A model generated the notes under the pieces. It ran no database searches. It was not told where the DNA came from and worked only from the letters and a program-made list of their open reading frames with translations. This document shows positions 9,606 to 22,875 of a stretch of DNA of 61,105 nucleotides, piece after piece. Positions within the stretch are counted from its first letter, which is position 1. Each line of letters opens with the position of its first letter. The stretch lies in contig CAUJDS010000066.1 of assembly GCA_963169695.1 (NCBI GenBank), positions 1-61,105 on the forward strand. Reading direction: 5' to 3'. Position numbers and translations under genes: made by a program. The stretch is from Bdellovibrionota bacterium (lineage in GTDB: Bacteria > Bdellovibrionota > UBA1018 > CAUJDS01).

Positions 9606-10628
9606 ATGAAACGATCCGAACAGATCTTTCTGAGAAAGTTGCCTCGCTTTTCGGCCAAAGATCGAAAAGCGACCCTCGTCATATTTGATCACATCCTGAC
9701 CAAATGGGTTCCTGGTTTTAGCACCTGGATCAGTCGATTTCCAAATGCCTATCCCGTCAAAGCAGGAGAGTCCCTGAAGTCCCTGCGATCGTACAGTGAT
9801 TTTTGTGAAAGGGTGAGCCGAACGGCTCCCGATATTCGACGTAGTAATGGTCGAGTTCTTGGAATTGGTGGAGGCTCCGTTGGGGATTTCTCCGGATTTT
9901 TTGCTAGCACCTACCTACGCGGCCTACCCTTAGAGCTCCTCCCTACGACTTGGCTCTCGGCCATTGACTCAGCCCACGGCGGTAAGACCGCCCTAAATTT
10001 GCTTAACCATAAAAACCAAATTGGTACTTTTTATCCTGCCAGAAAAATCTACCTCGTTCGAGGCATGCTGGAAGTTCAAGGAAAAAGCCTCGAAGAACAA
10101 GCCTGGGGCGAACTTGCCAAGATTGCCATCTTGGATGGTGGAAAGTGGACCTACTCCCTCAACCGCGCTTCCCTTTGGTCCGTCCTTCCTCAGGCAATCG
10201 AAGCAAAGTGGAAGTGGGTACTTCAAGATCCCCTGGAGACAAAAGGAATTCGACATGCGCTGAACCTTGGCCACACCTGGGGTCATGTCTTAGAAGCAGC
10301 AAAGGGGCTATCCCACGGCGAGGCTGTCTTGCGTGGAATTCGGTTTGCTTTGCAATGGAGCTTCGAAAAAAACTACCTCTCCGAAAGAGATAGAAATCAC
10401 TTAATCCAATTCCTGGGCTCCTCTCGCTCCGAGACCGGCCCACTCTCACGCAAACAAGCGACTGCTCACCTACTGCGAGATAAAAAAATAGATCCGAAGG
10501 GATTGCGATTCGTTTTCTTAAAGTCAAAGTCGTCTGGATCAAAAAATAAAATAAAACCCTTCTTTGAATCCGTCACACTTCCGCAACTATTGAAAGAATT
10601 AGAAAGACAAGGATGGCTGAAGGTTTGA
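9606..10628 (+). CDS. aroB: 3-dehydroquinate synthase
   Basis: The enzyme converts DAHP to 3-dehydroquinate with NAD and a divalent metal. The NAD-binding glycine motif is GGGSVGD (88-94). 'IDSAHGGKT' (K127) replaces the usual S-V-G-G-K. Metal ligands are E169 ('GELAK') and the histidines of 'NLGHTWGH' (H223) and 'SHGEAV' (H237). The N-terminal 85 residues are shortened against typical enzymes, and the total is 340 instead of about 360. AGGAG five bases upstream supports ATG 9606. It is the first gene of the plus-strand aro operon, and its last 16 bases overlap aroA, so the two are probably translationally coupled. The same position leads the eukaryotic AROM polypeptide. Confidence 0.95.
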   Translation: MKRSEQIFLRKLPRFSAKDRKATLVIFDHILTKWVPGFSTWISRFPNAYPVKAGESLKSLRSYSDFCERVSRTAPDIRRSNGRVLGIGGGSVGDFSGFFASTYLRGLPLELLPTTWLSAIDSAHGGKTALNLLNHKNQIGTFYPARKIYLVRGMLEVQGKSLEEQAWGELAKIAILDGGKWTYSLNRASLWSVLPQAIEAKWKWVLQDPLETKGIRHALNLGHTWGHVLEAAKGLSHGEAVLRGIRFALQWSFEKNYLSERDRNHLIQFLGSSRSETGPLSRKQATAHLLRDKKIDPKGLRFVFLKSKSSGSKNKIKPFFESVTLPQLLKELERQGWLKV

Positions 10629-11806
10629 TTGCTGTACGAATCGCAGTTTCAAAATCAATCGCCAATCGAGCTATGATCCTCCAGAGCTTTCAAGCTGTGA
10701 AGCTTCTGGAAGAAGGCGCTTGCAATGACATTGCTCAACTCCGAAAGGCACTTCATGCTTTTCAGTCCGGAGAATCGGTACTGGATTGCGGCGAGGGCGG
10801 TACAGTTTTGAGGTTCCTACTGGCTCGAGTGTCGAGAGAGGCGGGCCACTGGCACCTTCTCATGGGTCCTTCCCTGCGTTGTCGACCCCACCAAGAACTC
10901 ATGCAAGCACTCTCAGAACTCGGAGTGAGCACTTCACTTACCGCGCAAGGGATAGAGGTTCGGAGCAAAGGATGGCAAGCCCCTCGTAATCCACTGCGCA
11001 TCTCTTGTGAACGCTCTAGCCAATTTCTAAGTGCCATACTCCTTTCGTCAGCGCACCTGCACTTCGACCTTGAAATAGATTTTTCTGGAAACAAGGTAAG
11101 CGAGCCTTACCTCGCCATGACCCTCGCACTTCTCGATCTCAATGGCATCAGGGCCGAAAATCTGGAGAACGCGAAACTCCGAATTCGTGCCAACCAAACA
11201 CTTTCCCTTCCTCTGCTGATACCAAAAGAACCTGATCTTAGTTCCACCTTTGCTTTGGCAGCTCTCGCAAGTGTCAAAGGACGTGTGCTGATTGATGCAT
11301 TTCCGCTTTCATCGCTTCAACCAGATGCTAGCTTTGTTCACCATCTTCGGTCCTTAGGTGCTTATTGCACTCGCAATCGGGAGGGACAGCTTCTCGTGGA
11401 AGCACGGGACCTCCATGGAGTTGACTGTGACTTAGGTTCGAGCCCGGATCTCTTTCCATGCCTCGCGTCGTTGGCTGGGATCGCGAAGGGATCCTCTCGA
11501 TTCTTCGGCGCCACTCAACTGAATCACAAAGAAAGTCCCCGCATTCAAAAAATATCCGAACTGCTATCACTGATAGGGCGCCCTCATGAGGTCAAAGATG
11601 ACGGAATCCTGATCGGAGCAGGATTACCCAGAGATCCCAAAGAATGTCTGTCTCCACTCGCTTTTGATCCAGCCAATGACCATCGAATGGTGATGGCAGC
11701 AGATATCCTGATTCGGGCGGGCTACCCCATCGAAGTGTCCCATCGCGAATGCGTAACTAAGAGTTTCTACGAATACGAGGATCTCAAATGCAACGCATTG
11801 TCTTAA
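10613..11806 (+). CDS. aroA: 3-phosphoshikimate 1-carboxyvinyltransferase (EPSP synthase)
   Basis: This enzyme transfers the enolpyruvyl group of PEP to shikimate-3-phosphate. It has 397 residues. 'AVSKSIANRA' (K14, S15) is the substrate loop that normally reads DKSxSHR. 'GEGGTVLRF' (60-68) is the PEP site, usually GNSGT, followed by 'RPHQEL'. 'SSQFLSAILL' (from 135), 'DLSSTFALAA' and 'NDHRMVMAADI' are the remaining domain signatures. The N-terminus is very short. The gene begins inside aroB (16-base overlap) and its end overlaps the fused aroK-aroD-aroE by 19 bases. The GNSGT to GEGGT change at the glyphosate/PEP site is unusual and may affect inhibitor binding; this is inference. Confidence 0.93.
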   Translation: MAEGLIAVRIAVSKSIANRAMILQSFQAVKLLEEGACNDIAQLRKALHAFQSGESVLDCGEGGTVLRFLLARVSREAGHWHLLMGPSLRCRPHQELMQALSELGVSTSLTAQGIEVRSKGWQAPRNPLRISCERSSQFLSAILLSSAHLHFDLEIDFSGNKVSEPYLAMTLALLDLNGIRAENLENAKLRIRANQTLSLPLLIPKEPDLSSTFALAALASVKGRVLIDAFPLSSLQPDASFVHHLRSLGAYCTRNREGQLLVEARDLHGVDCDLGSSPDLFPCLASLAGIAKGSSRFFGATQLNHKESPRIQKISELLSLIGRPHEVKDDGILIGAGLPRDPKECLSPLAFDPANDHRMVMAADILIRAGYPIEVSHRECVTKSFYEYEDLKCNALS

Positions 11807-13473
11807 TAGGCCATCGCGGTGTGGGCAAGACCTCCCTTGCACGTCGCATTGCCGGATACCTCCAAACATCCTGGAGCGACCTGGATCAAGCTGTCGAAAC
11901 TCAATTTGATAGAGCAATCGCTGATTACTTTCCAAAAGACGAAGCGTTGTTTCGTCAGCGTGAAACCTCCACCCTCAAGCACCTTTTGGAAAATAGGACT
12001 TCCGTCGTAGCAGTGGGTGCAGGATTTCAAGGTTGGGAGTTGCTTCATGACTGGAAGAAGAAAGATCCAGCTCTGAGAATCCTTTGGGTGCGTCGCCCAA
12101 GTGATCTGACGGGACGCATCTTCTTGGATCGTCCCGCACTTAGCGACGCTTCGCCATTGGATGAGTTTCACGCTTTTCGCAAAATACGAGATCCCATTTT
12201 TTCACAAGTTTGCACGGAGGAACTTTGGCTTTCGGAAGGTTTTGATTTTCCAAATAATCCCGAACGGAAGGCCTTACTGCTCGACGCTTCCGTCCATCCT
12301 GGTATTCTCACGCTTTTTCCGAAACACCTGGAAAAAGGCTTTCCTCGCTTTGAGCGATACGAATTGCGCACCGATCTTCTGAGCAAAGATGCCATTGAAT
12401 CCTTTCGTGAGAAGATCCCTAGCCATCAGATACTTTTGAGTTATCGCACAACAGAGTGGCGACACTTCCCAGCTCGCCAAGGTGAATGGGTGGACTGGCC
12501 GTATGAATGGGGCCAACCTACAACTTCCGCTAACAACTCCCATTGGATTTTGTCTTCCCATGATGCGCTCATAGAACCCGAAAGCCCTCACCTTCTTAAG
12601 GCTGCACCTTGGGTTTCATCTTGGAAGGAACTGATCGAGGGACATGAATGGTGGATGCGTGATCCACGGAGACGATCCTTCCTTCCTCGGTCAACGGATG
12701 GACGTTGGACATGGTACCGACTTTGGATGCTTCACAAGCAGCCCATGGCCTTTGTACGCGTTGACGAAGGTTCATGCCTTGACCAACCCACCCTTCACCA
12801 AGTTCACCAAATGCCAGGTCCTTTTGATCATTTTGGGGCGGTTCTGGGTGATCCTGTTTCTTTGAGTCATTCACCTGCTTTGCATTTTGATTTCTTTCGA
12901 GAAAGAGGGATGCCTTTCTTTTCTATCTCGATCGTCCAAGGGGATTGGCCACTAGCCTGCCAATTCCTTCTCTCACTGGGGCTGCGTTTTGCCGCAGTGA
13001 CCACTCCCCTCAAGCAGGTAGTGGCTCCAGAGGAAGGCTCGGTCAACACCTTGCGATGGTTAAGCGATGAGGTATCCCCAACTTGCGCCAATACCGACCT
13101 TGATGGATTGAGGGATAGCGTTGGAATGGACTCGCTAGGATCTACTGTCCTCTGGGGAGGAGGAGGAACGGAAGCTATTGTAAAAGCTGTTTTGCCAGAC
13201 GTGCATATTTACTCTGCTCGTACTGGGTTGCTTCGAAGTGGAGCTTCACAGGATACCCATGATCCCGATACTTTGATCTGGGCGGTTCCACCTGCTCGAC
13301 AAGAGGCTTGCAAGTGGCCATCCCCTCAGTGGAAGCCAAAGCTCGTCATCGACCTCAATTATTTTGAACACTCTCCAGCCAGGACTTATGCCAAATCGGT
13401 TGGAGCCCTCTACCGCTCAGGGAAAAAAATGTTAGCTTCACAAGCTGAGATGCAAAGGAAGTTTTGGAAATGA
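11788..13473 (+). CDS. Trifunctional shikimate kinase / type I dehydroquinase / shikimate dehydrogenase fusion
   Basis: One 561-residue protein carries three shikimate enzymes. Residues 1-165 are shikimate kinase: P-loop G8-H-R-G-V-G-K-T15, 'DLDQ' (31-34), 'FRQRE' (55-59), lid 'DRPAL' (114-118). Residues 180-342 form a compact type I 3-dehydroquinate dehydratase. It has E192 and R194 in 'YELRTD', R220 in 'LSYRT', H258 in 'SSHDA', the Schiff-base K271 in 'LLKAAP', and S329/Q333 with the spacing of E. coli S232/Q236. Residues 346-561 are shikimate dehydrogenase: 'GDPVSLSHSP' (354-363), K409 in 'TTPLKQ', 'SVNT', 'NTD', a GGGG nucleotide loop (457-460) and Q552 in 'MLASQAE'. All key catalytic residues are present, so all three activities are expected. 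The domain order K-D-E equals the C-terminal half of eukaryotic AROM. ATG has GAGG seven bases upstream; aroC follows with an ATGA overlap. Confidence 0.93.
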   Translation: MQRIVLIGHRGVGKTSLARRIAGYLQTSWSDLDQAVETQFDRAIADYFPKDEALFRQRETSTLKHLLENRTSVVAVGAGFQGWELLHDWKKKDPALRILWVRRPSDLTGRIFLDRPALSDASPLDEFHAFRKIRDPIFSQVCTEELWLSEGFDFPNNPERKALLLDASVHPGILTLFPKHLEKGFPRFERYELRTDLLSKDAIESFREKIPSHQILLSYRTTEWRHFPARQGEWVDWPYEWGQPTTSANNSHWILSSHDALIEPESPHLLKAAPWVSSWKELIEGHEWWMRDPRRRSFLPRSTDGRWTWYRLWMLHKQPMAFVRVDEGSCLDQPTLHQVHQMPGPFDHFGAVLGDPVSLSHSPALHFDFFRERGMPFFSISIVQGDWPLACQFLLSLGLRFAAVTTPLKQVVAPEEGSVNTLRWLSDEVSPTCANTDLDGLRDSVGMDSLGSTVLWGGGGTEAIVKAVLPDVHIYSARTGLLRSGASQDTHDPDTLIWAVPPARQEACKWPSPQWKPKLVIDLNYFEHSPARTYAKSVGALYRSGKKMLASQAEMQRKFWK

Positions 13474-14429
13474 GTGCTAATCAATTTGGAAGTCGATTTC
13501 GAATCACGACCTTCGGAGAAAGCCATGGCCCTGCCTTGGGGGTGGTCATTGACGGTTGTCCCGCTGGAGTCCTTTTTGACGAAGTACTTCTACGGGATGT
13601 CCTGGATCGTCGAAAACCAGGTAAAGCACTCACCTCCTCTCGACAAGAAGCGGATCACTACGAAGTCTTGAGTGGAGTCTATGAAGGCAAAACCCTGGGC
13701 ACTCCTCTCGCGATGATAGTAAGGAACCACGATGCGCGAAGTGAAGACTACATCACCATTGCAGACAATCCACGACGAGGTCATGCAGATGCGACTTGGA
13801 GAAACAAGTTCCAGCATTCTGACCCGCGTGGCGGCGGGAGATCCAGTGGAAGAGAAACTGTGGCGAGGGTACTGGCAGGCGCTGTGGCGCAAATGCTTGT
13901 GAGGACTCGATGTCCCGAAGTCGCAATACAAAGCCAGCTGCTTCAAGTGGGACCTTTGACACTCGAAAAGGCCTCTGATTGGGAGCGAGATTTAGAAACA
14001 CTCCTTCAGCAAGCCAAAGTCGAAGGTCAAAGCTACGGAGGCGTTATTCGGGTGACACTCTCGGGTGTGCCTCCGTCTCTGGGGCAACCCGTCTTTCGAA
14101 AACTAAAATCCGATCTCGCCCAGGCCATTCTCTCGATCGGCGCAGTCAATGGATTTGAATTGGGAGCGGGTTTTTCGGGGGTAGAAAGTAAAGGCACCGA
14201 CTTTCATGCTCCCGATTCACATCCTTATGGTGGAATCCAAGGTGGCATCAGCACGGGGGATCCTATTCAATTCAAGGCTTCCATCAAACCGACTTCGTCT
14301 ATCTTGGATATTGCCAAAAAGGGCCGTCACGATCCGTTTATTGGATTGCGCGCGATTCCGGTTATGGAGGCAATGACTTGGCTAGTCTTGGCAGATCACT
14401 TGCTTTGGTCTGCTACCGATAAAATATAG
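13470..14429 (+). CDS. aroC: Chorismate synthase
   Basis: This FMN-dependent enzyme makes chorismate from EPSP, the last shikimate step. 'FGSRFRITTFGESHGPALG' is the diagnostic N-terminal signature. 'GRSSGRETVARVLAGAVA' and the C-terminal 'GRHDPFIGLRAIPVMEAM' are also typical. At 319 residues it is shorter than the usual 350-390, but both ends are conserved and no domain is missing. ATG 13470 overlaps the stop of the fusion gene as ATGA, which implies coupled translation. The last 34 bases overlap the convergent menG gene. Chorismate made here is the substrate of MenF, encoded 1.5 kb downstream. Confidence 0.95.
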   Translation: MSANQFGSRFRITTFGESHGPALGVVIDGCPAGVLFDEVLLRDVLDRRKPGKALTSSRQEADHYEVLSGVYEGKTLGTPLAMIVRNHDARSEDYITIADNPRRGHADATWRNKFQHSDPRGGGRSSGRETVARVLAGAVAQMLVRTRCPEVAIQSQLLQVGPLTLEKASDWERDLETLLQQAKVEGQSYGGVIRVTLSGVPPSLGQPVFRKLKSDLAQAILSIGAVNGFELGAGFSGVESKGTDFHAPDSHPYGGIQGGISTGDPIQFKASIKPTSSILDIAKKGRHDPFIGLRAIPVMEAMTWLVLADHLLWSATDKI

Positions 14430-15130
14430 AGGTAAGCAATTCCTCCGGTGAGAGCTTGAGACTGAACCTCAGCGAAACATCCCTGCGCACGAGCCAAATT
14501 TAAAAATGCCTCTCCATAGGGAAATGCTGAAGAAGACTTCTCGAGGTAAGCATAAGCCTGGCGCTTACCACTGACCCAGCCGCCCAATACGGGAAGGAGC
14601 TTGCGCGAGTACCACTGGTACATTCCACGCAACAATGCTCTCTTTGGCTGCCCAAACTCCAAAATCAAAACCTTGCCGCCTCTCTTCGTCACTCGGGCCA
14701 ATTCACGCAGTCCTAATGCAGGATCCACGACATTGCGAATTCCGAAAGAAACACTTGCTGCATCAAACTGTTGGCTTGCAAAGGGAAGTTTGCAAATATC
14801 GGCGAACTCAAAATGAACCGTAGAGTCCCGCTGTGCGGCTTTTTTCTTAGCTAGCTCAAGCATGGGCTCACAGAAATCGGTTCCAATGATTTTCGCTTTG
14901 GATGAGAGGGAGCGTTCCCACGCAAATGCAACGTCTCCAGTGCCCGTTGCACAATCCAAAACCTTGGCATCCTGAGGCAAATGCACCGAAGACACCAAAG
15001 CCTTGCGCCAAAGGTGATGGATACCTACGGACAGCGTAGAATTGGCCAGATCATACCGATGGGCGATGGACGAAAAAAGATTTCGAATTTCGGAAGGGTT
15101 TTTGGTTTGAACCAAATCCTGATCATTCAT
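14396..15130 (-). CDS. menG: Demethylmenaquinone C-methyltransferase
   Basis: This SAM-dependent methyltransferase of the UbiE/MenG family performs the final C-methylation of menaquinone. It is 244 residues. Motif I reads 'VLDCATGTGDVAFAWE', motif II 'IIGTDFCEPML', and the UbiE signatures are 'FDAASVSFGIRNV' and 'GGKVLILEFGQP'. The start has GGAGG ten bases upstream. It is transcribed with the DAHP synthase gene, 14 bases before it, against the men operon. The Mg-porphyrin-like alternative is excluded by the UbiE signatures. Because the surrounding genes make naphthoquinone, menG is preferred over ubiE. Confidence 0.93.
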   Translation of the reverse strand: MNDQDLVQTKNPSEIRNLFSSIAHRYDLANSTLSVGIHHLWRKALVSSVHLPQDAKVLDCATGTGDVAFAWERSLSSKAKIIGTDFCEPMLELAKKKAAQRDSTVHFEFADICKLPFASQQFDAASVSFGIRNVVDPALGLRELARVTKRGGKVLILEFGQPKRALLRGMYQWYSRKLLPVLGGWVSGKRQAYAYLEKSSSAFPYGEAFLNLARAQGCFAEVQSQALTGGIAYLYILSVADQSK

Positions 15131-15144
15131 TGAAACAATTCCTC

Positions 15145-15969
15145 CTAGAGGCTAGAAAAGAAAGGAATGCCAGGATCCGAAAGCCGGCGTCCCAAGGCTG
15201 GTAGAAGCGTTCGCAAACGTTTCATCAAATCTTCCAATTCAAATAAATCTAAAGCTTGAGCCCCATCCGAAAGCGCCTTTTCTGGATTCGGATGCACTTC
15301 AATCAATAGTCCATCCGCACCGGCTGCAGCTGCCGCGAGTGCCATAGGGAGGACCAAGTCTTTTCGACCGGTACCATGACTAGGATCCACCAAGATTGGA
15401 TAATTTACTTTGGACTTCAAAATGGGTACGGCCGCAAGGTCTAACGTATTGCGTGTCTCGCGCTCAAAGGTACGAATCCCTCGCTCGCAAAGCATGACTC
15501 GAGAGTTGCCACCTTGAATGACGTAATTGGCGGCCTGAAGCCACTCTTCTAAATAAGCAGAGAGCCCACGCTTCAGAAGCACGGGCTTTTCTTGCTTTCC
15601 GAGTTCTTTGAGAAGTTCGTAGTTGTACATGTTGCGAGTTCCAACTTGCAGGACATCCGCAACTTCACTGAGGCCCTTGATCTGACGAACATCCGTGACT
15701 TCACTCACTAAGGATAGACCAAGCTCCTGCTTGACCTGCGCAACAATAGAATAGGCCGATTCTCCAAGACCCTGAAAGGACTCTGGATTTGTTCGCATCT
15801 TATAGATTCCACCACGAAGGGCGGTCACACCCAAATCTTGGATGGTACGCGCGACCTGGGTTAGAACCTCGTAACTTTCAATGGAACAAGGACCGGCTAT
15901 GACGCAGAAAGGTAAAGAACTCACAAGTGGATGCACTTTATAGTGGAAGTTCTGTTTAATCAAATGCAA
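15145..15969 (-). CDS. aroF: 3-deoxy-7-phosphoheptulonate (DAHP) synthase, type I beta
   Basis: This enzyme condenses PEP and erythrose-4-phosphate, the entry to the shikimate pathway. Signatures are 'FCVIAGPCSIES', 'LRGGIYKMRTNPESFQGLG' (the K-P-R-T-S-P variant), 'QVGTRNMYNYELLKE', 'PVLLKRG' and 'PILVDPSHGTGRKDL'. There is no N-terminal ACT, ferredoxin-like or chorismate-mutase domain, so feedback control by aromatic amino acids is not evident. No in-frame ATG precedes the core. TTG at 15969 is my tentative start; TTG at 15963 and 16002 are alternatives, and the last would overlap the divergent menF start. No clear ribosome binding site is seen. The aroF symbol is used for the activity only. 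Confidence 0.9.
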   Translation of the reverse strand: MHLIKQNFHYKVHPLVSSLPFCVIAGPCSIESYEVLTQVARTIQDLGVTALRGGIYKMRTNPESFQGLGESAYSIVAQVKQELGLSLVSEVTDVRQIKGLSEVADVLQVGTRNMYNYELLKELGKQEKPVLLKRGLSAYLEEWLQAANYVIQGGNSRVMLCERGIRTFERETRNTLDLAAVPILKSKVNYPILVDPSHGTGRKDLVLPMALAAAAAGADGLLIEVHPNPEKALSDGAQALDLFELEDLMKRLRTLLPALGRRLSDPGIPFFSSL

Positions 15970-15979
15970 TAGAAAACAG

Positions 15980-17005
15980 ATGCGCGCTCTTTTGGATCCC
16001 AATCATTCAGCGTTCTTTCAGTCAGGTTTTATTCTCTCCAGATCAGAGAAACCTGGGGATCGAATTCAATTGGCGTCCCTCAGTTCAACTGAAAAAGATG
16101 CGCCTATCTTTGCGCCGTCCTTCTTTTCGAAGCATCAGGAGTCCACGATTCGAGCGGCAAATCTTATGGACATTGCCCGCTCGGACCTGCTTCGAGCGTG
16201 CGAAGGTCCAAGCCTTGATCCTCTAACCTGGTCGGCAGTCAACTGGCGAGAGTTCGAAAAAGACTTCCTCGACTTTCAATGGGAGGCCAGTCAAGGAAAC
16301 TTAAAGAAAGCGGTCTTATTTGCATCGCAATCGGGCCCCCCACCGAGTGTCGATCGAATCCGATTCTGGCTAGGACAACTCTTGCTTCATACGGAGAACT
16401 ACCCAGTTTGGATCTACGGATTTTGGAATGAAGAGGGCGGAATACTCGGCGCAACTCCCGAGCTTCTCTTTGAGCGCAAAGGGGATCAGCTCACAACCAT
16501 GGCACTTGCCGGGACTCAGAAGCCCGGATTTCCAAGCCTGCAGTCAGACCCGAAAGAAATGCAGGAACACGCTTTGGTGGTGGAAGCCCTTTGTGAATCA
16601 CTCGGTAAAGACCGCACGCAAGTGGGAGAACTTCAGCTTCGAGCCGCTGGGCCCACCCTTCAACACCTCTTCACACCGATACGAGCCAAAATTCCTGAAT
16701 CCCTAAGCACCGAAGCCTTGATTCAAGCCCTTCACCCAACACCCGCCCTCGGTGGTGTCCCAAGAGAGACTGCATTGCGTTTTCTGGCAGAACGAGAGCG
16801 AGGGCGAGGCCGCTTTGGTGCACCCTTTGGCTTGGCTGAGCAAATGGTCGTAGCCATTCGTGGAATCCAATGGGACCGCGAGAAGAGTTGGATCACCGCG
16901 GGTGCAGGCATCCTGCCGCAAAGTATTTTAACAACCGAGCGCTACGAACTCATGATGAAACTTCGCTCGATTCGAAAGTCTTTTTCTGAGGACGCTTCAT
17001 CGTGA
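15980..17005 (+). CDS. menF: Isochorismate synthase
   Basis: This Mg-dependent chorismate-utilising enzyme isomerises chorismate to isochorismate, the first committed menaquinone step. It is 341 residues. Family motifs are 'ATPELLFERKGDQL', 'ALAGTQKPG', 'EHALVVEAL', 'LHPTPALGGVPRETALRFL', 'RGRFGAPFG' and 'WITAGAGILPQS'. The N-terminal part is shortened compared with E. coli MenF (431). ATG 15980 has no good Shine-Dalgarno, and the gene begins head-to-head with the DAHP synthase. It overlaps menD by 4 bases (GTGA) and leads the seven-gene men operon. Confidence 0.93.
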   Translation: MRALLDPNHSAFFQSGFILSRSEKPGDRIQLASLSSTEKDAPIFAPSFFSKHQESTIRAANLMDIARSDLLRACEGPSLDPLTWSAVNWREFEKDFLDFQWEASQGNLKKAVLFASQSGPPPSVDRIRFWLGQLLLHTENYPVWIYGFWNEEGGILGATPELLFERKGDQLTTMALAGTQKPGFPSLQSDPKEMQEHALVVEALCESLGKDRTQVGELQLRAAGPTLQHLFTPIRAKIPESLSTEALIQALHPTPALGGVPRETALRFLAERERGRGRFGAPFGLAEQMVVAIRGIQWDREKSWITAGAGILPQSILTTERYELMMKLRSIRKSFSEDASS

Positions 17006-18468
17006 TTCAACGTTTGATTGATCAGGGCATCACGCAATTCTGCGTATGCCCGGGATCTCGCAACGCCCTTTTGATTCAGCAGCTGATTCAAAGAGGATCC
17101 GAAGTAGCCGTCACCTACCACTTTGAAGAACGATCGGCGGCTTTCTTTGCATTGGGTCTTGCTCGCTCATCGCAAAAGCCAGTGGGTATCCTAGTCACTT
17201 CTGGTACTGCCGCAGGAGAACTCCTTCCTGCTGCAATGGAAGCAACCTACACGCAAGTGCCATTGATACTAATGACTGCAGATCGACCTCGTCGTTTTTC
17301 GGGCACGAATGCCCCGCAAGCTGCCGAGCAAGTTGGAATTTTTGGCGTCTACGCCTCACCGACTATCGAAATAACCGAAGGGGATTTGACCTGGCAGCTT
17401 CCTCCTCGACCTTGGCTGAAACCTTTGCACCTCAATTTTTATTTGGAAGACCCTATGAGCGGAACGCTTGATGCTTCCGAACAAAAGCAGACTTCTCATT
17501 CTGGAATAGTCCTCACACTCGAAAGGATGGACGAATGGAAAGCGCAACTGGATCGCGCGCAATCCCCCCTAGCCATTGTAGGAGAAATCAGCAACACCAA
17601 TGATCGACTTAGCGTGGAAGCATTTCTGCTGCACTTCAATTTGGCCTGCTACTGCGAGGCTACATCGGGACTAAGAGAATCACCTCAGTTGAAAAGCCTA
17701 CGAGTCACGGATCTTTCGTCTCTCACTGACTTTGATGCCGTAGTTCGATTGGGCGGAATCCCCACCCATCGTGTCTGGAGAGATTTGGAACGGAAGTGGA
17801 AGACTTTCCCCGTCTTATCCTTGAGCGACCGCCCTTACTTGGGAATGGCAAGACCTAGTATTTTGCTACATGCCTCAATTGCAGAAGGAGTCCATGCACT
17901 TCAAACGGATTTGCTCCCGAAGAAGCGAAGACCTCCACTCAAAGATCCTATCCCCGAAGATTTCTCACCTGGTAGTGAGCGCCATTGGATGCGTTGGTTG
18001 TCGCTGAATTTTCCTAAAGGAAGTCGCATTTTTTTGGGCAATAGCCTTCCCATTCGACTTTGGGACGAGGCAGCTACTCACGATTCTCGAAATTACGAAA
18101 TGGGAGCGTCACGAGGTCTCAATGGGATTGATGGGCAAGTTTCAACCTTCCTGGGTTGGTGTCAGAAGGACCAGCACAATTACGCAATCTTAGGAGACCT
18201 TACAACGCTGTACGATTTGGCGGGGCCGTGGGTTTTGCCGTCGCTTCAAGCGGACTCGATCCACCTCATCGTGCTCAACAATGGCGGCGGAAAAATATTT
18301 GCTCCAATGTTTCAACAGAAAGAATTTATCAACTCACATCACTATTCTTTTGAAGGGCTCGCTCGCCTTTGGAAGCTCCCTTACCATCGTTGGACGACTC
18401 CACCTGCGACACTCCCCACCCAGGGCCGCGGGCTAATAGAAATAGTTTGCCATGGAGACGAAGCGTGA
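17002..18468 (+). CDS. menD: SEPHCHC synthase (MenD), thiamine-diphosphate enzyme
   Basis: This ThDP- and Mg-dependent enzyme adds the succinic semialdehyde unit from 2-oxoglutarate to isochorismate. N-terminal signature: 'FCVCPGSRNALL' (14-25) and 'HFEERSAAFFALGLA', where E43 should activate ThDP. 'TSGTAAGELLPA' follows. The C-terminal ThDP site is 'ILGDLTTLYDLAG' then 'IVLNNGGGKIF'. At 488 residues it is about 60 shorter than E. coli MenD, with the loss mainly in the middle domain and tail. GTG is the start, overlapping menF by four bases. All active-site motifs are intact. Confidence 0.94.
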   Translation: MIQRLIDQGITQFCVCPGSRNALLIQQLIQRGSEVAVTYHFEERSAAFFALGLARSSQKPVGILVTSGTAAGELLPAAMEATYTQVPLILMTADRPRRFSGTNAPQAAEQVGIFGVYASPTIEITEGDLTWQLPPRPWLKPLHLNFYLEDPMSGTLDASEQKQTSHSGIVLTLERMDEWKAQLDRAQSPLAIVGEISNTNDRLSVEAFLLHFNLACYCEATSGLRESPQLKSLRVTDLSSLTDFDAVVRLGGIPTHRVWRDLERKWKTFPVLSLSDRPYLGMARPSILLHASIAEGVHALQTDLLPKKRRPPLKDPIPEDFSPGSERHWMRWLSLNFPKGSRIFLGNSLPIRLWDEAATHDSRNYEMGASRGLNGIDGQVSTFLGWCQKDQHNYAILGDLTTLYDLAGPWVLPSLQADSIHLIVLNNGGGKIFAPMFQQKEFINSHHYSFEGLARLWKLPYHRWTTPPATLPTQGRGLIEIVCHGDEA

Positions 18469-19163
18469 AGCCTTGTTCCATACATGCGCTGCACGGATTC
18501 TTGGGAGATTCGCAGGACTGGGATGCATCCCCCTTGCCCTTAAAGTCCCTATCCCATGCGTCGATCCGTCGGAAGTCCCTTAGCGAAACGGGTCAGGCAC
18601 TTGCAGAGTCTGTGTCTCATCAAGGAAAAAAGGTTCTCTTGGGATACTCGCTGGGCGGTCGCATCGCGCTTCATTCTCTTTTGGAGTGCCCCACGACTTG
18701 GTCTGCCGCGATCATGGTAAGCACCCATGCTGGCCTACCCACAGAACGAGAGCAAAAAACGCGAATCCAATCCGATCAGCACTGGATCCAACGTTACCAG
18801 CAGCTGGAATGGGAAGCATTTTTAGGCGCGTGGAATCAACAGCCAACCCTCCAATCGAGTAAGCCACTTAGCATTCCTCAACGCCCCGTGGAATCGGTGA
18901 TTCGACCCCTTGACGAATGGAGCCTGGGACGACAGGAGTTTCTTTTACCAAAATTATCCCAGCTCCACCTTCCAGTACTTTGGGTAGCAGGAGAAGCGGA
19001 CACGCGTTATGTCGAACTTGCGCGAAGTTATCAAAGCGAAAACAAGGATTTTCGGCTATACCTATGCCCTGGCGCGGGTCATCGCGTGCCTTGGGATCAA
19101 CCCAATTTATTTTGGCAAAACGTAAAGGAGTTCCTCAATGAAACAGGAATGGACCCAGCTTAA
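18465..19163 (+). CDS. menH: SHCHC synthase (MenH), alpha/beta hydrolase
   Basis: This 232-residue alpha/beta-hydrolase should eliminate pyruvate from SEPHCHC. The oxyanion part is '[12 protein letters not shown]', the nucleophile elbow '[13 protein letters not shown]', and the catalytic His lies in 'GAGHRVPW'. I place the start at GTG 18465, which overlaps the menD stop as GTGA. The frame stays open further upstream to 18369, but that would overlap menD by 100 bases and adds nothing like the family. Its end overlaps menB by 26 bases. Position between menD and menB supports the MenH assignment over a general esterase. Confidence 0.9.
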
Positions 19164-19959
19164 GGAATATCAGGACATTCGATTTGAAGCGACGGAAGAC
19201 GGCGTAGCAAAGATCACAATCAATCGTCCCCATGTGAGAAATGCATTTCGACCAGAGACGATCATGGAACTGATTGATGCGTTTCATCTAGTGCGCGACG
19301 ACAGCGCAGTTGGAGTGGTGATCCTTACCGGCGAAGGGAATGAAGCATTCTGCTCAGGAGGAGATCAGAAAGTACGCGGCGATGGCGGATACATTGGTGG
19401 CGATGGCAAAGCTCGCTTGAATGTCTTGGATCTCCAAAAGCAAATTCGCTCATTGCCAAAGCCAGTGATTGCCATGGTTGCGGGATATGCCATTGGTGGT
19501 GGCCATATCCTTCATTTGGTTTGTGACTTATCTATTGCAGCCGATAACGCGCGCTTTGGCCAGACGGGACCGAAGGTTGGGTCCTTTGATGGCGGGTTGG
19601 GTAGCAGTTACCTTGCGAGAATTGTAGGCCAAAAGAAAGCGCGAGAAATCTGGTTCCTCTGTCGTCAGTACGACGCCAAGCAAGCCCTCGATATGGGATT
19701 GGTGAATACCGTCGTACCTTTGTCCGAACTTGAGTCTGAAACCCTAAAATGGAGTCGCGAGATCCTTCAACATTCGCCACTAGCTTTGCGTTGTCTCAAA
19801 TCAGCCATGAATGCTGACTGTGACGGACAAATTGGACTATTGGATTTGGCTGGGAATGCAACACTCCTCTACTATCTTTCGGAAGAAGCCAAAGAAGGAA
19901 AGAAAGCCTTCCTCGAGAAGCGCAAACCTGACTTCAAGAAATTTGGACGCCTCCCATGA
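19138..19959 (+). CDS. menB: 1,4-dihydroxy-2-naphthoyl-CoA synthase
   Basis: This crotonase-fold enzyme closes the second ring of the naphthoquinone from OSB-CoA. It is 273 residues. '[15 protein letters not shown]', '[11 protein letters not shown]', '[16 protein letters not shown]' (oxyanion hole) and '[17 protein letters not shown]' are MenB-specific, and '[13 protein letters not shown]' follows. An AGGAG box seven bases before ATG 19138 sits inside the end of menH. The stop overlaps menA by four bases. This is one of the most confidently assigned genes of the block. Confidence 0.96.
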
Positions 19960-20834
19960 AGTCCGCTGCCCTCATTCAAGCGGCAAGACCGAAGACACTA
20001 ACCGCGTCTCTCGTGCCATGCATGGTGGCTGGCGCTTATGCCATGCATGAATTGGGATTTGTGCCGTGGGGCTTACTCCTTTCAGCCTGCGCTAGTGCTT
20101 TGATGATTCAAATCGGAACCAACTATTTCAATGACGTCTACGACTTCAAGAAAGGCGCGGACACTGCAGAGAGAATGGGACCGCGTCGAGCCACCCTTTC
20201 TAAGGACCTTTCACCGCGACAGGTTTTTTCGCTCGGGGTCTTGGCATTTGGCTTGGCACTTCTTTTTTCGATTCCCCTGGTAATCAAAGCAGGAATTCCG
20301 ATTCTTATTCTAGGATTGGTATCTTTGTTAGCAGGATACCTCTACACGGCTGGCCCCTTTCCACTTGCGTACGTGGGATTGGGAGAAGTCTTCGTGATCT
20401 TGTTCTTTGGTTGGGCAGCCGTTGGCGGTTTGGCATATCTCTTTGACTTACCTTTGGATGGAAGCGTTTGGATTTTGGCTACTCAAATAGGGCTCCTCTC
20501 AGCCGCGATGATCGCTATCAATAACCTACGTGACGCAAGAACGGATGTCTTTGCAGGCAAGAAGACACTTGCCGTAAGACTTGGAATCCCTGCAAGCAAA
20601 GTGCTGATTCAACTATTCTTGATCGCACCTTATATAATGAGTCTCTATTATATAGGGGCAAGACAGTCCTACTGGGCTGGTCTATTACCCTGGGTAACGC
20701 TACCCCTCGCCCTAAGACTTTGCGGAAACATCCGATCAGCAGAACCTTCACCCCTCTACAATGAGTTTTTGGCTCAAGCTGCCAAGATTCAACTTCTGTT
20801 TGGACTAACCTTGACCGTGGCGTGGCTACTTTGA
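19956..20834 (+). CDS. menA: 1,4-dihydroxy-2-naphthoate polyprenyltransferase
   Basis: This UbiA-superfamily membrane prenyltransferase attaches the polyprenyl chain to DHNA. It is 292 residues with about eight or nine membrane helices. The aspartate motif is '[14 protein letters not shown]'. A second conserved region, '[19 protein letters not shown]', holds the other diphosphate-binding Asp residues. The start overlaps the menB stop (ATGA), and the end overlaps menC by 13 bases. Its prenyl donor is probably made by the polyprenyl diphosphate synthase at the left edge of the block. Confidence 0.95.
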
Positions 20835-21706
20835 ACTGCGCTTACTGGCCTTATGAATTGCTTCCAAAAGAAACGGGGCAGGTGCGCAAGGGTGCCTTGC
20901 TTCGCTTTGATTTTCCTGACGTGGGATATGGCTATGCCGACTGTCACCCTTGGGAATCACTTGGGGACGCGCCACTCGACGATCAATTGAGGTTCTTATC
21001 AGCAGGCCGGCTCACGCTTTTGACTCAGCGAAGTAGAGATTTTGCAAATCAGGACGCGCTCGCTCGAGCAACCAAGGAAAACCTCTGGACGGGATTAAGA
21101 ATCCCTCCCTCCTACCTACTTATTCAAAATTGGAAGGAAATCCAGCTGGGGACAGACCTAGGATTTAGCGAATTCAAAATCAAACTCCCTACTGATCTTC
21201 CGTCGCTTAAAGTACGCGTTCGACTCGATTGGCAAAATCAATCAAGTCCCGAGGCGCTTCAGACCTTTCTTCATCGGTACGCATCAAGTCGAGAGCAAGT
21301 GGTCTATAGCGAAGATCCGTTTCCTTGGGATCCGCTCACCTGGAAGAATGTTAGAAAAATGCTCGACCATCCTTTGGCTGTTGACCGACAGCCCTTTGAC
21401 AAGGAACAATCGGACTTCATTCGGATCTTGAAGCCCGCGATTCAAAATCCTCAAGACTACCAGGATCACGCATCCTCGACGATCTACACCAGCTACCTCG
21501 ATCATCCTATCGGGACGCTTTTTGCGATGTGGGAAGCAGCTCGTCGAGAATGTGAGGAACCATGCGGATTTGCCAGTCACCTGTATTACGAGCCGAACGA
21601 GTTTTCGGATCAGCTTGTGGTACAAAACAATCGAGTCCTTCCACCAGAAGGCACCGGTATCGGATTCGACGAACCCCTCAGGAGGCTCGCATGGATTGGA
21701 ATTTGA
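20822..21706 (+). CDS. menC: o-Succinylbenzoate synthase
   Basis: This enolase-superfamily enzyme dehydrates SHCHC to o-succinylbenzoate. It is 294 residues. The catalytic lysine pair is in 'EFKIKL', metal ligands lie in 'VRLDWQNQ', 'YSEDPFPWD' and 'LAVDRQ', and the second-face lysine lies in 'IRILKPAIQ'. I use GTG 20822; TTG 20831, which overlaps the menA stop as TTGA, is an equal alternative. The sequence is divergent, as MenC usually is, so the assignment leans on motifs and on position between menA and menE. Confidence 0.88.
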   Translation: MATLNCAYWPYELLPKETGQVRKGALLRFDFPDVGYGYADCHPWESLGDAPLDDQLRFLSAGRLTLLTQRSRDFANQDALARATKENLWTGLRIPPSYLLIQNWKEIQLGTDLGFSEFKIKLPTDLPSLKVRVRLDWQNQSSPEALQTFLHRYASSREQVVYSEDPFPWDPLTWKNVRKMLDHPLAVDRQPFDKEQSDFIRILKPAIQNPQDYQDHASSTIYTSYLDHPIGTLFAMWEAARRECEEPCGFASHLYYEPNEFSDQLVVQNNRVLPPEGTGIGFDEPLRRLAWIGI

Positions 21707-22875
21707 TCGATCGAGAAATCTTAGTGAATCCTCGCCTCGTCGAAGTGGATCGCAATACGCTCGTCCATCGACTTATTTCTTCCCGTGCCTACGAAGACCT
21801 GAAGGATCACCTCTGGATCCTCACATCAGGATCTTCGGGAGAACCTAAATGGATTGCACTCTCGCGCGAGGCTTTCTTATCGAGCGCGGCATCCGTCAAC
21901 CGTGTGGCAGAAGTGACCTCTAACGATCGCTGGCTCAATGTACTTCCACTTTTTCATGTGGGTGGACTTGCCACTCAGGCTCGCGCTTGGTTGGCAAATT
22001 CAACCTGGGTCGATCGATCCGAGATGAATTGGGATCCGGCCGTATTTGTAAGGACCGCCGAAGAACAACAGACAACGCTGACCTCCTTGGTACCATCGCA
22101 GGTCTATGATCTGGTTCAGCGAGAGTTGACTCCGCCTCCTACGCTGCGTCGTATATTTGTCGGTGGCGGCAAACTTACGGCAAGCACACGAGATCGCGCT
22201 TTGGCCCTAGGCTGGCCCCTCTGTATTACTTATGGCCTTACTGAATCAAGCTCTCAAGTCGGCTTGTATTTTGGTGATCAAGAATCGTATGCACCCCTTC
22301 CACACGTCGAATTTAGAATTGCTCAAGATGGCTGGATCGAAATCAAAAGTCCGGCATTGCTTACGGGTATGATTGACCACGAAGGATGGAAAGATCCCAA
22401 GGTAGACGGATGGTTTCGATGTGAGGACCTGGGTTCGCTCGATACCGAAGGACGTCTCACGTTGATTGGGCGTGCGTCAGGATTTATCAAAATCTTAGGC
22501 GAGAAGGTTTCTTTGACCAAACTTCAAGAAATGGTGGACTGCGGACGTCATGAGATGCGCCTGAGTCACACTCCCATCCTTTGGTCCGAGCCTTGCGAAC
22601 GCAAGGAAAACACCCTTCATCTCGTTGCTGAGAATGAACTCGAAGCCCAAAAGCTTGTCGCTTGGTATCAGTCGAAGGTCATGCCTTACGAAAGGATCGA
22701 GGCTATTCGGATCATCGACCAAATCCCCCGAACTGAGATGGGGAAGACGCCTGTTTCTCAATTACGGCAGCGGTTAGCCGAACCACACAAAGTCGTTCCT
22801 GTTTCTCATTTCGAATCTGAATATCCCAAACCTGAAACCGCTTCCCCAACCTTAACGGCTGAACCCGCCCTGTAA
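21691..22875 (+). CDS. menE: o-Succinylbenzoate--CoA ligase
   Basis: This adenylate-forming enzyme makes OSB-CoA. It is 394 residues. The P-loop is 'LTSGSSGEPKW' (45-53), followed by 'PLFHVGGL', 'YGLTESSSQVG', 'WFRCEDLG' and the C-terminal catalytic lysine K352 in 'PRTEMGK'. ATG 21691 has AGGAGG five bases upstream. The frame is open from 21562, but that would extend 145 bases into menC. Homology ends near residue 362. The last 30 or so residues are a tail read from DNA that on the other strand encodes conserved MenI. It is about 50 residues shorter than E. coli MenE. Confidence 0.93.
   Translation: MDWNLIDREILVNPRLVEVDRNTLVHRLISSRAYEDLKDHLWILTSGSSGEPKWIALSREAFLSSAASVNRVAEVTSNDRWLNVLPLFHVGGLATQARAWLANSTWVDRSEMNWDPAVFVRTAEEQQTTLTSLVPSQVYDLVQRELTPPPTLRRIFVGGGKLTASTRDRALALGWPLCITYGLTESSSQVGLYFGDQESYAPLPHVEFRIAQDGWIEIKSPALLTGMIDHEGWKDPKVDGWFRCEDLGSLDTEGRLTLIGRASGFIKILGEKVSLTKLQEMVDCGRHEMRLSHTPILWSEPCERKENTLHLVAENELEAQKLVAWYQSKVMPYERIEAIRIIDQIPRTEMGKTPVSQLRQRLAEPHKVVPVSHFESEYPKPETASPTLTAEPAL

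Follow-up and report, generated by a model that had tools for sequence, protein, structure and literature searches.

We identified, in an aro operon of a Bdellovibrionota genome, a single 561-residue protein (KDE) in which shikimate kinase (K), a divergent type I dehydroquinase (D), and shikimate dehydrogenase (E) are joined in that order, and sequence and model comparisons make it highly probable that KDE is a trifunctional enzyme for steps 3, 4, and 5 of the shikimate pathway. The window, that is, the whole stretch of DNA analyzed (61,105 nucleotides), carries this gene directly downstream of aroB and aroA. A bacterial phylum thus possesses a trifunctional, and in places tetrafunctional, enzyme in the exact order of the five-domain AROM protein, and it either evolved the AROM layout independently for a second time, with intermediates preserved, or was the bacterial source of AROM.

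Organization of the aro Operon

The genes aroB, aroA, KDE, and aroC form a chain of four overlapping open reading frames on the plus strand of the window. The 3-dehydroquinate synthase gene aroB (9606..10628, +, 340 aa) matched PF01761 (1.3e-24), PF24621 (1.5e-20), and TIGR01357 (5.5e-53), and has an AAGGAG ribosome-binding site immediately upstream; the EPSP synthase gene aroA (10613..11806, +, 397 aa) matched PF00275 (1.8e-45) and TIGR01356 (7.6e-59). KDE follows as a single open reading frame (11788..13473, +), and the chorismate synthase gene aroC (13470..14429, +; PF01264, 7.8e-99) has its most probable start codon, ATG, at 13470. The earlier note had described a fused AroK-AroD-AroE in AROM order downstream of aroB and aroA, with overlaps of 16 and 19 bases; the open reading frames bear out both, with 16 bases shared by aroB and aroA, 19 by aroA and KDE, and a further 4 (ATGA) by KDE and aroC. 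Promoter and terminator scans of the window returned chance-level signals only. A DAHP synthase gene for step 1 of the pathway lies near the aro genes on the minus strand (15145..16002; PF00793, 1.5e-71). It belongs to a region beside them (14396-22875) in which genes of chorismate and menaquinone synthesis adjoin, encoding a UbiE-type methyltransferase, the DAHP synthase, a chorismate-binding enzyme, MenD, MenH, MenB, MenA, and a Bdellovibrio-type MenC.

Pfam and NCBIfam recognized AroB, AroA, AroC, and the kinase clearly and the dehydrogenase weakly, and gave no match for the middle domain of KDE. The K domain (residues 1-161; 11788..12270, +) matched SKI (PF01202) over residues 10-140 with E 1.8e-14 and 54.6 bits against a cut-off of 22.1. 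It carries the Walker A motif GHRGVGKT with K14, together with D33, R56, and R115; the Walker A lysine and the shikimate-binding Asp and Arg (K14, D33, and R56) were kept in 101-102 of 103 aligned KDE-family proteins, K14 itself in 102. The E domain (residues 346-561; 12823..13470, +) matched TIGR00507 (1.8e-9) and, over residues 352-414, Shikimate_dh_N (PF08501; E 4.6e-4), the latter with 20.8 bits and hence below the cut-off of 27; relatives reached E values of up to 4.9e-16 and exceeded the cut-off at loci L084 (31.5 bits) and L052 (46.2 bits). K409, N420, and D437 were each conserved in 100 of the 103 proteins and Q552 in 98; we take K409 and D437 to be the catalytic Lys and Asp, and N420 and Q552 the substrate-binding Asn and Gln, of AroE. 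The sole SKI match and the sole Shikimate_dh_N match of the window's genome both lie within KDE.

A Predicted Type I Dehydroquinase in the Middle Domain

A Pfam search of the 561-residue protein had been expected to return SKI, DHquinase_I, and Shikimate_dh_N. SKI was found and Shikimate_dh_N remained below its cut-off, but DHquinase_I (PF01487) gave no match in the window KDE at E<=1e-3, none anywhere in the window's genome at E<=10, and, among the matches listed, none in the 37 KDE family members. The cut-offs of Shikimate_dh_N and PF01487 are detection limits, and that of PF01487 is not a biological feature. We therefore turn to more sensitive comparisons of the D domain (residues 172-343; 12301..12816, +). 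When a profile of this region alone, built from the 37-sequence family alignment, was searched against the whole PDB, the only significant matches were three type I dehydroquinases (2ocz, 3l9c, and 2egz; E 1.9e-5 to about 5e-4). Their ElRxD, SxH, and K motifs coincided with those of the profile, and H258 and K271 aligned with the catalytic His and Lys (H143 and K170 in E. coli/Salmonella numbering). An hhalign comparison of the D family with seven ordinary type I enzymes gave a probability of 83% and E 8.7e-6 over 174 columns, and in E. coli/Salmonella numbering it aligned E192 with E46, R194 with R48, R220 with R82, H258 with H143, K271 with K170, R311 with R213, S329 with S232, and Q333 with Q236. 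From the aligned enzymes, K271 is presumably the Schiff-base lysine and H258 the catalytic histidine, and we take R194, R311, and Q333 to be the counterparts of the carboxylate-binding and ring-binding residues.

Among the 103 aligned proteins, K271 was invariant, H258, R311, and Q333 were each kept in 102, E192 in 101, R220 in 99, and R194 in 98, and S329 was kept in just 66. Thus all of the catalytic residues named in the earlier note (K14, H258, K271, K409, N420, D437, and Q552) are retained in 98-103 of the 103 proteins. D has no conserved residue in place of the glutamate that follows R82 (E86 in Salmonella), which is likewise missing from some ordinary type I enzymes within the phylum. 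AlphaFold modeled the whole KDE chain with a mean pLDDT of 92 and a pTM of 0.91, and the D region of the model has the eight strands (E170-175 to E322-324) of a (beta/alpha)8 barrel. The D stretch measures 171 residues in the window, compared with a family median of 192 and with 208-257 for the ordinary enzymes of the comparison set, and 13 residues separate H258 from K271, compared with a family median of 23 (n=103) and with 27 in E. coli AroD; by this spacing, the window barrel is among the most shortened of the family. Taken together, these profile and model comparisons identify the middle domain as a type I dehydroquinase that has diverged strongly and is predicted to be active. The earlier note had named a failure of domain searches to detect a dehydroquinase in residues 180-342 as grounds for dropping the evolutionary link to AROM; judged on Pfam only, this condition would have applied, but the D profile, hhalign, and AlphaFold recover the domain.

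KDE in Bdellovibrionota and Its Fusion with AroA

KDE is widespread in Bdellovibrionota, in many metagenome-assembled genomes as well as in complete Bdellovibrio chromosomes such as NZ_CP102930.1 (Bdellovibrio bacteriovorus) and CP025734.1. The genome of the window shares its phylum with Bdellovibrio, and the NCBI ranks of related loci likewise give Bdellovibrionota. A search for the same fusion and for the B-A-KDE order elsewhere had been proposed with the original observation; within the phylum, it returned the fusion in 98 of 291 genomes and the order in most loci. Among loci of at least 9 kb (n=62, a count in which a few genomes appear twice), 37 showed the order aroB, aroA, KDE, aroC, five showed aroB, aroA, KDE without an aroC detected on that strand, and eight had AroA fused in-frame to KDE behind aroB. 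KDE was also seen in genome bins labeled Planctomycetota and Myxococcales (L073 and L115), which are either mislabeled or contaminated bins or cases of transfer to other phyla.

The A-K-D-E frames, which are AROM minus its first domain, occurred in three family-level groups, namely f13 (L002/L052), f27 (L033, L034, and L035/L120), and f2 (L031/L085 and L036), and also in L057 and L117. In L117 and L033, the short junction between A and KDE contains no start codon at all (for example, KSFPTFWSIVEGDAPKVAIIGHRGTGKT), and thus these are real fusions; other junctions contain an in-frame GTG, TTG, or ATG, at which internal starts are possible. The proposal that the operon is only a few joins short of AROM is therefore strengthened, because the A-KDE join has been made in relatives. 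No B-fused, pentafunctional form was present among the AroB matches listed from a phylum-wide search (a match in 293 of 369 genomes, the weakest lying outside those listed), and none of the listed AroB frames was longer than 443 aa. Two candidate full fusions were rejected: the 1366-aa frame of genome G134 consists of A-K-D-E and, ahead of it, a shadow of aroB in another reading frame, and the long frame of G256 (L032/L074) shares bases with aroA but is read in a different frame. At L042/L127 (886-aa frame) and L037/L128 (689-aa frame), the KDE homologues are unusually long or have diverged strongly, and show large insertions or a weak E domain, possibly reflecting remodeling or decay. Overall, KDE is an established trait of Bdellovibrionota that replaces separate AroK, AroE, and AroQ, and AroA has joined it in some lineages.

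Dehydroquinase Complement and Proposed Function

A profile search of the window's genome, which is 95.6% complete and may thus hold an unseen enzyme, returned no type II dehydroquinase and no recognizable type I dehydroquinase. In the phylum sample, KDE was present in 98 of 291 genomes, a type II enzyme in 117, and an ordinary type I enzyme above cut-off in five, with no overlap; the mutual exclusion of KDE and type II gave a Fisher p of 1.4e-29, a value that ignores the relatedness of the genomes. Family f2, of the window's own order, includes both KDE genomes and type II genomes, and thus the alternation is not merely a deep split. Since KDE never co-occurs with a type II enzyme, D is very probably the working dehydroquinase of the KDE genomes, as judged from gene content. 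AroB resembled that of the window much more closely in KDE genomes (mostly E below 1e-43) than in type II genomes (1e-40 or weaker), a pattern that suggests that the whole aro cassette may be inherited or exchanged as a unit. Another 71 of the 291 genomes had neither KDE nor a recognized type I or II dehydroquinase, and many of these, among those listed, also lacked AroB; aromatic auxotrophy or an additional, different enzyme might account for them.

In the proposed mechanism, K271 of the D domain would form a Schiff base with 3-dehydroquinate and H258 would act as the general acid/base in its dehydration, the E domain would reduce 3-dehydroshikimate with NADPH (K409/D437), and the K domain would phosphorylate shikimate with ATP (P-loop K14). 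One transcript that also encodes AroB (step 2), AroA (step 6), and AroC (step 7) would supply steps 2 to 7, with KDE presumably fixing a 1:1:1 ratio of steps 3, 4, and 5 and the gene overlaps possibly coupling translation. Because the domain order 5-3-4 departs from the reaction order, the gain is more likely to be fixed stoichiometry and co-localization than a linear relay. We do not claim channeling, given this off-pathway order and given that fungal AROM is reported to produce no faster flux in vitro than its separate domains (PMC9074039). If the assignment of D is correct, it would also fill an apparent gap: by Pfam, the KDE genomes, including Bdellovibrio bacteriovorus, have no dehydroquinase, and domain searches read KDE as a kinase plus a dehydrogenase, which makes the cryptic middle domain the candidate. 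The cultured Bdellovibrio strains make KDE accessible to experiment.

Other readings of the fusion itself were considered. The window comes from an assembly of 82 contigs, which could raise the suspicion of an assembly artifact or of one odd genome; the recurrence of KDE in 98 genomes and, decisively, its presence on complete chromosomes refute such an artifact or chance origin, to which we assign practically no credence. It is also conceivable, albeit quite improbable, that D is a decayed dehydroquinase that persists as a structural linker while another, unrelated enzyme performs the dehydration. Its invisibility to Pfam, its short barrel, and its shortened His-Lys loop would fit such decay, and a precedent exists in Candida albicans Aro1, where a type II enzyme has taken over from an inactive D domain (PMC9074039), so that fusion is no guarantee of activity. 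However, the catalytic His and Lys and the putative substrate-binding residues are kept in nearly all of 103 proteins, and the KDE genomes lack the type I or II alternative that other genomes of the phylum have. We thus retain the reading of KDE as a trifunctional enzyme with a working, predicted dehydroquinase.

Comparison with AROM

AROM (fungal Aro1; 6hqv, 7u5s, and 7tbv) and the Bdellovibrionota have in common the order B-A-K-D-E, here distributed over genes and domains, and a dehydroquinase of type I. AROM carries five domains in one chain, whereas KDE of the window has three and some relatives four, B and A being separate genes in the window, and the D barrel of KDE is much shorter than that of AROM. 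In a Foldseek search of the PDB with the KDE model, AROM was the best match by E-value (2.7e-25), with K, D, and E collinear; the TM score was nevertheless only 0.28 (rmsd about 18 A), which indicates that the predicted domain placement differs from that of AROM. A model of the tetrafunctional A-KDE protein (pLDDT 83.6 and pTM 0.56, with uncertain relative domain placement) was collinear with AROM over 1165 columns (E 5.5e-47). In profile searches, AROM scored below the best bacterial or archaeal chains for A (200 vs. 241 bits), B (174 vs. 224), K (about 53 vs. 68), and E (51 vs. 77), and it was not among the PDB matches of the D profile.

Phylogenetic trees covered A, K, and E, with partial fungal sequences representing AROM and with E. 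coli, mislabeled chromosomes in a plasmid collection, and PDB alignment sequences as outgroups; AroB and D were compared by profile ranks. In the A tree, the KDE lineages formed a clade (100/100) and AROM fell among other bacteria, with a joint clade not rejected (AU p 0.168), and in the K tree AROM paired with E. coli AroL (90/91), a joint AROM and KDE clade again not being rejected (AU p 0.30). In the E tree, AROM and KDE fell on the same side of a branch with 94/88, a weak result obtained with AROM sequences of half length and with KDE on a long branch. The kinase P-loop Arg (GxRGxGK) common to KDE and AROM was dropped as a link, because E. coli AroL also has GPRGCGKT. The earlier note had raised an evolutionary link to AROM and had suggested domain trees as a check; in the three trees that were run, the domains did not all group with AROM, and we read the A, K, and E trees together with the profile ranks as containing no congruent signal for AROM kinship.

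Under shared descent, eukaryotic AROM would derive from the B-A-K-D-E operon of such a bacterium or of an ancestor common to both, and only the missing joins would have had to be added. All five activities stand in the same order with a type I dehydroquinase in both, relatives have already fused A-K-D-E, the exact order of five genes would arise by chance once in 120 if all orders were equally likely (arithmetic only), and the E tree branch and the collinearity of the A-KDE model point the same way. On the other hand, AROM is outscored by ordinary bacterial enzymes in four profiles and absent from the matches of the fifth, the A and K trees place it elsewhere, if with weak supports and partial fungal sequences, and the predicted domain placement is unlike that of AROM. 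Weighing these points, we consider it unlikely that the aroB-aroA-KDE operon and the A-K-D-E forms preserve a bacterial intermediate of AROM, whether as its donor or as descendants of a fused ancestor. Convergence is the likeliest explanation of the likeness to the AROM order, which would then have had an independent origin in Bdellovibrionota.

Comparison with Other Shikimate Pathway Fusions

AROM has been described as a long-standing enigma, as prokaryotes normally have single enzymes and the reported exceptions are bifunctional only (PMC10792529). PMC10792529 remarks that bifunctional fusions emerged from a systematic survey of prokaryotes, a 2023 survey mentions bifunctional fusions only, and multi-domain EPSPS proteins are described as rare in bacteria and as usually having two domains (PMC9394408). 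We found no description of a bacterial K-D-E or A-K-D-E protein in the open full-text literature; the tri- and tetrafunctional bacterial fusions, in contrast to the bifunctional ones known before, are provisionally new. A viral structure search returned nothing significant, and a PHROGs search gave P-loop noise only.

Bifunctional AroDE fusions occur in plants, in 198 Planctomycetes and 88 Acidobacteria assemblies, and in some archaea (PMC11237513). As in plant DHQ-SDH and in bacterial and archaeal AroDE, a type I D domain directly precedes E in KDE, and the KDE model was collinear with Arabidopsis DHQ-SDH (2gpt; TM 0.55/0.61, rmsd 5.4; Foldseek); these fusions lack the kinase domain of KDE, however, and plant SDH reached 62 bits in the E profile compared with up to 77 for bacterial SDHs. 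Within the phylum sample, genome G251 (family f15) has an ordinary type I AroD-AroE fusion adjoining aroB (L147, 661-2199, -), and the rest of f15 uses the type II enzyme. The DHQD-SK fusion of Clostridia (CASP15 T1180; PMC10792529) resembles KDE in combining a type I dehydroquinase with shikimate kinase in one chain, but it is bifunctional only, is described as DHQD fused to SK, and has no dehydrogenase.

An AroE-AroK fusion is known in Methanomicrobiales (PMC11237513), and such proteins unite dehydrogenase and kinase in one chain, as KDE does. In family f9, which belongs to the phylum of the window, aroB is followed by an ordinary type I aroD, an AroE-AroK fusion, and then aroA where the locus extends that far (L199); the fusion lies at L148 (183-1637, -), L149 (293-1513, -), L151 (2052-3299, +), and, cut by the contig end, L150 (2127-3035, +). 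In contrast to KDE, in these loci (L148, L149, and L151) E precedes K and D is a separate, ordinary type I enzyme. The f9 AroE-AroK protein is an independent fusion, in pathway order, whereas KDE has its kinase, type I dehydroquinase, and dehydrogenase in the order of AROM.
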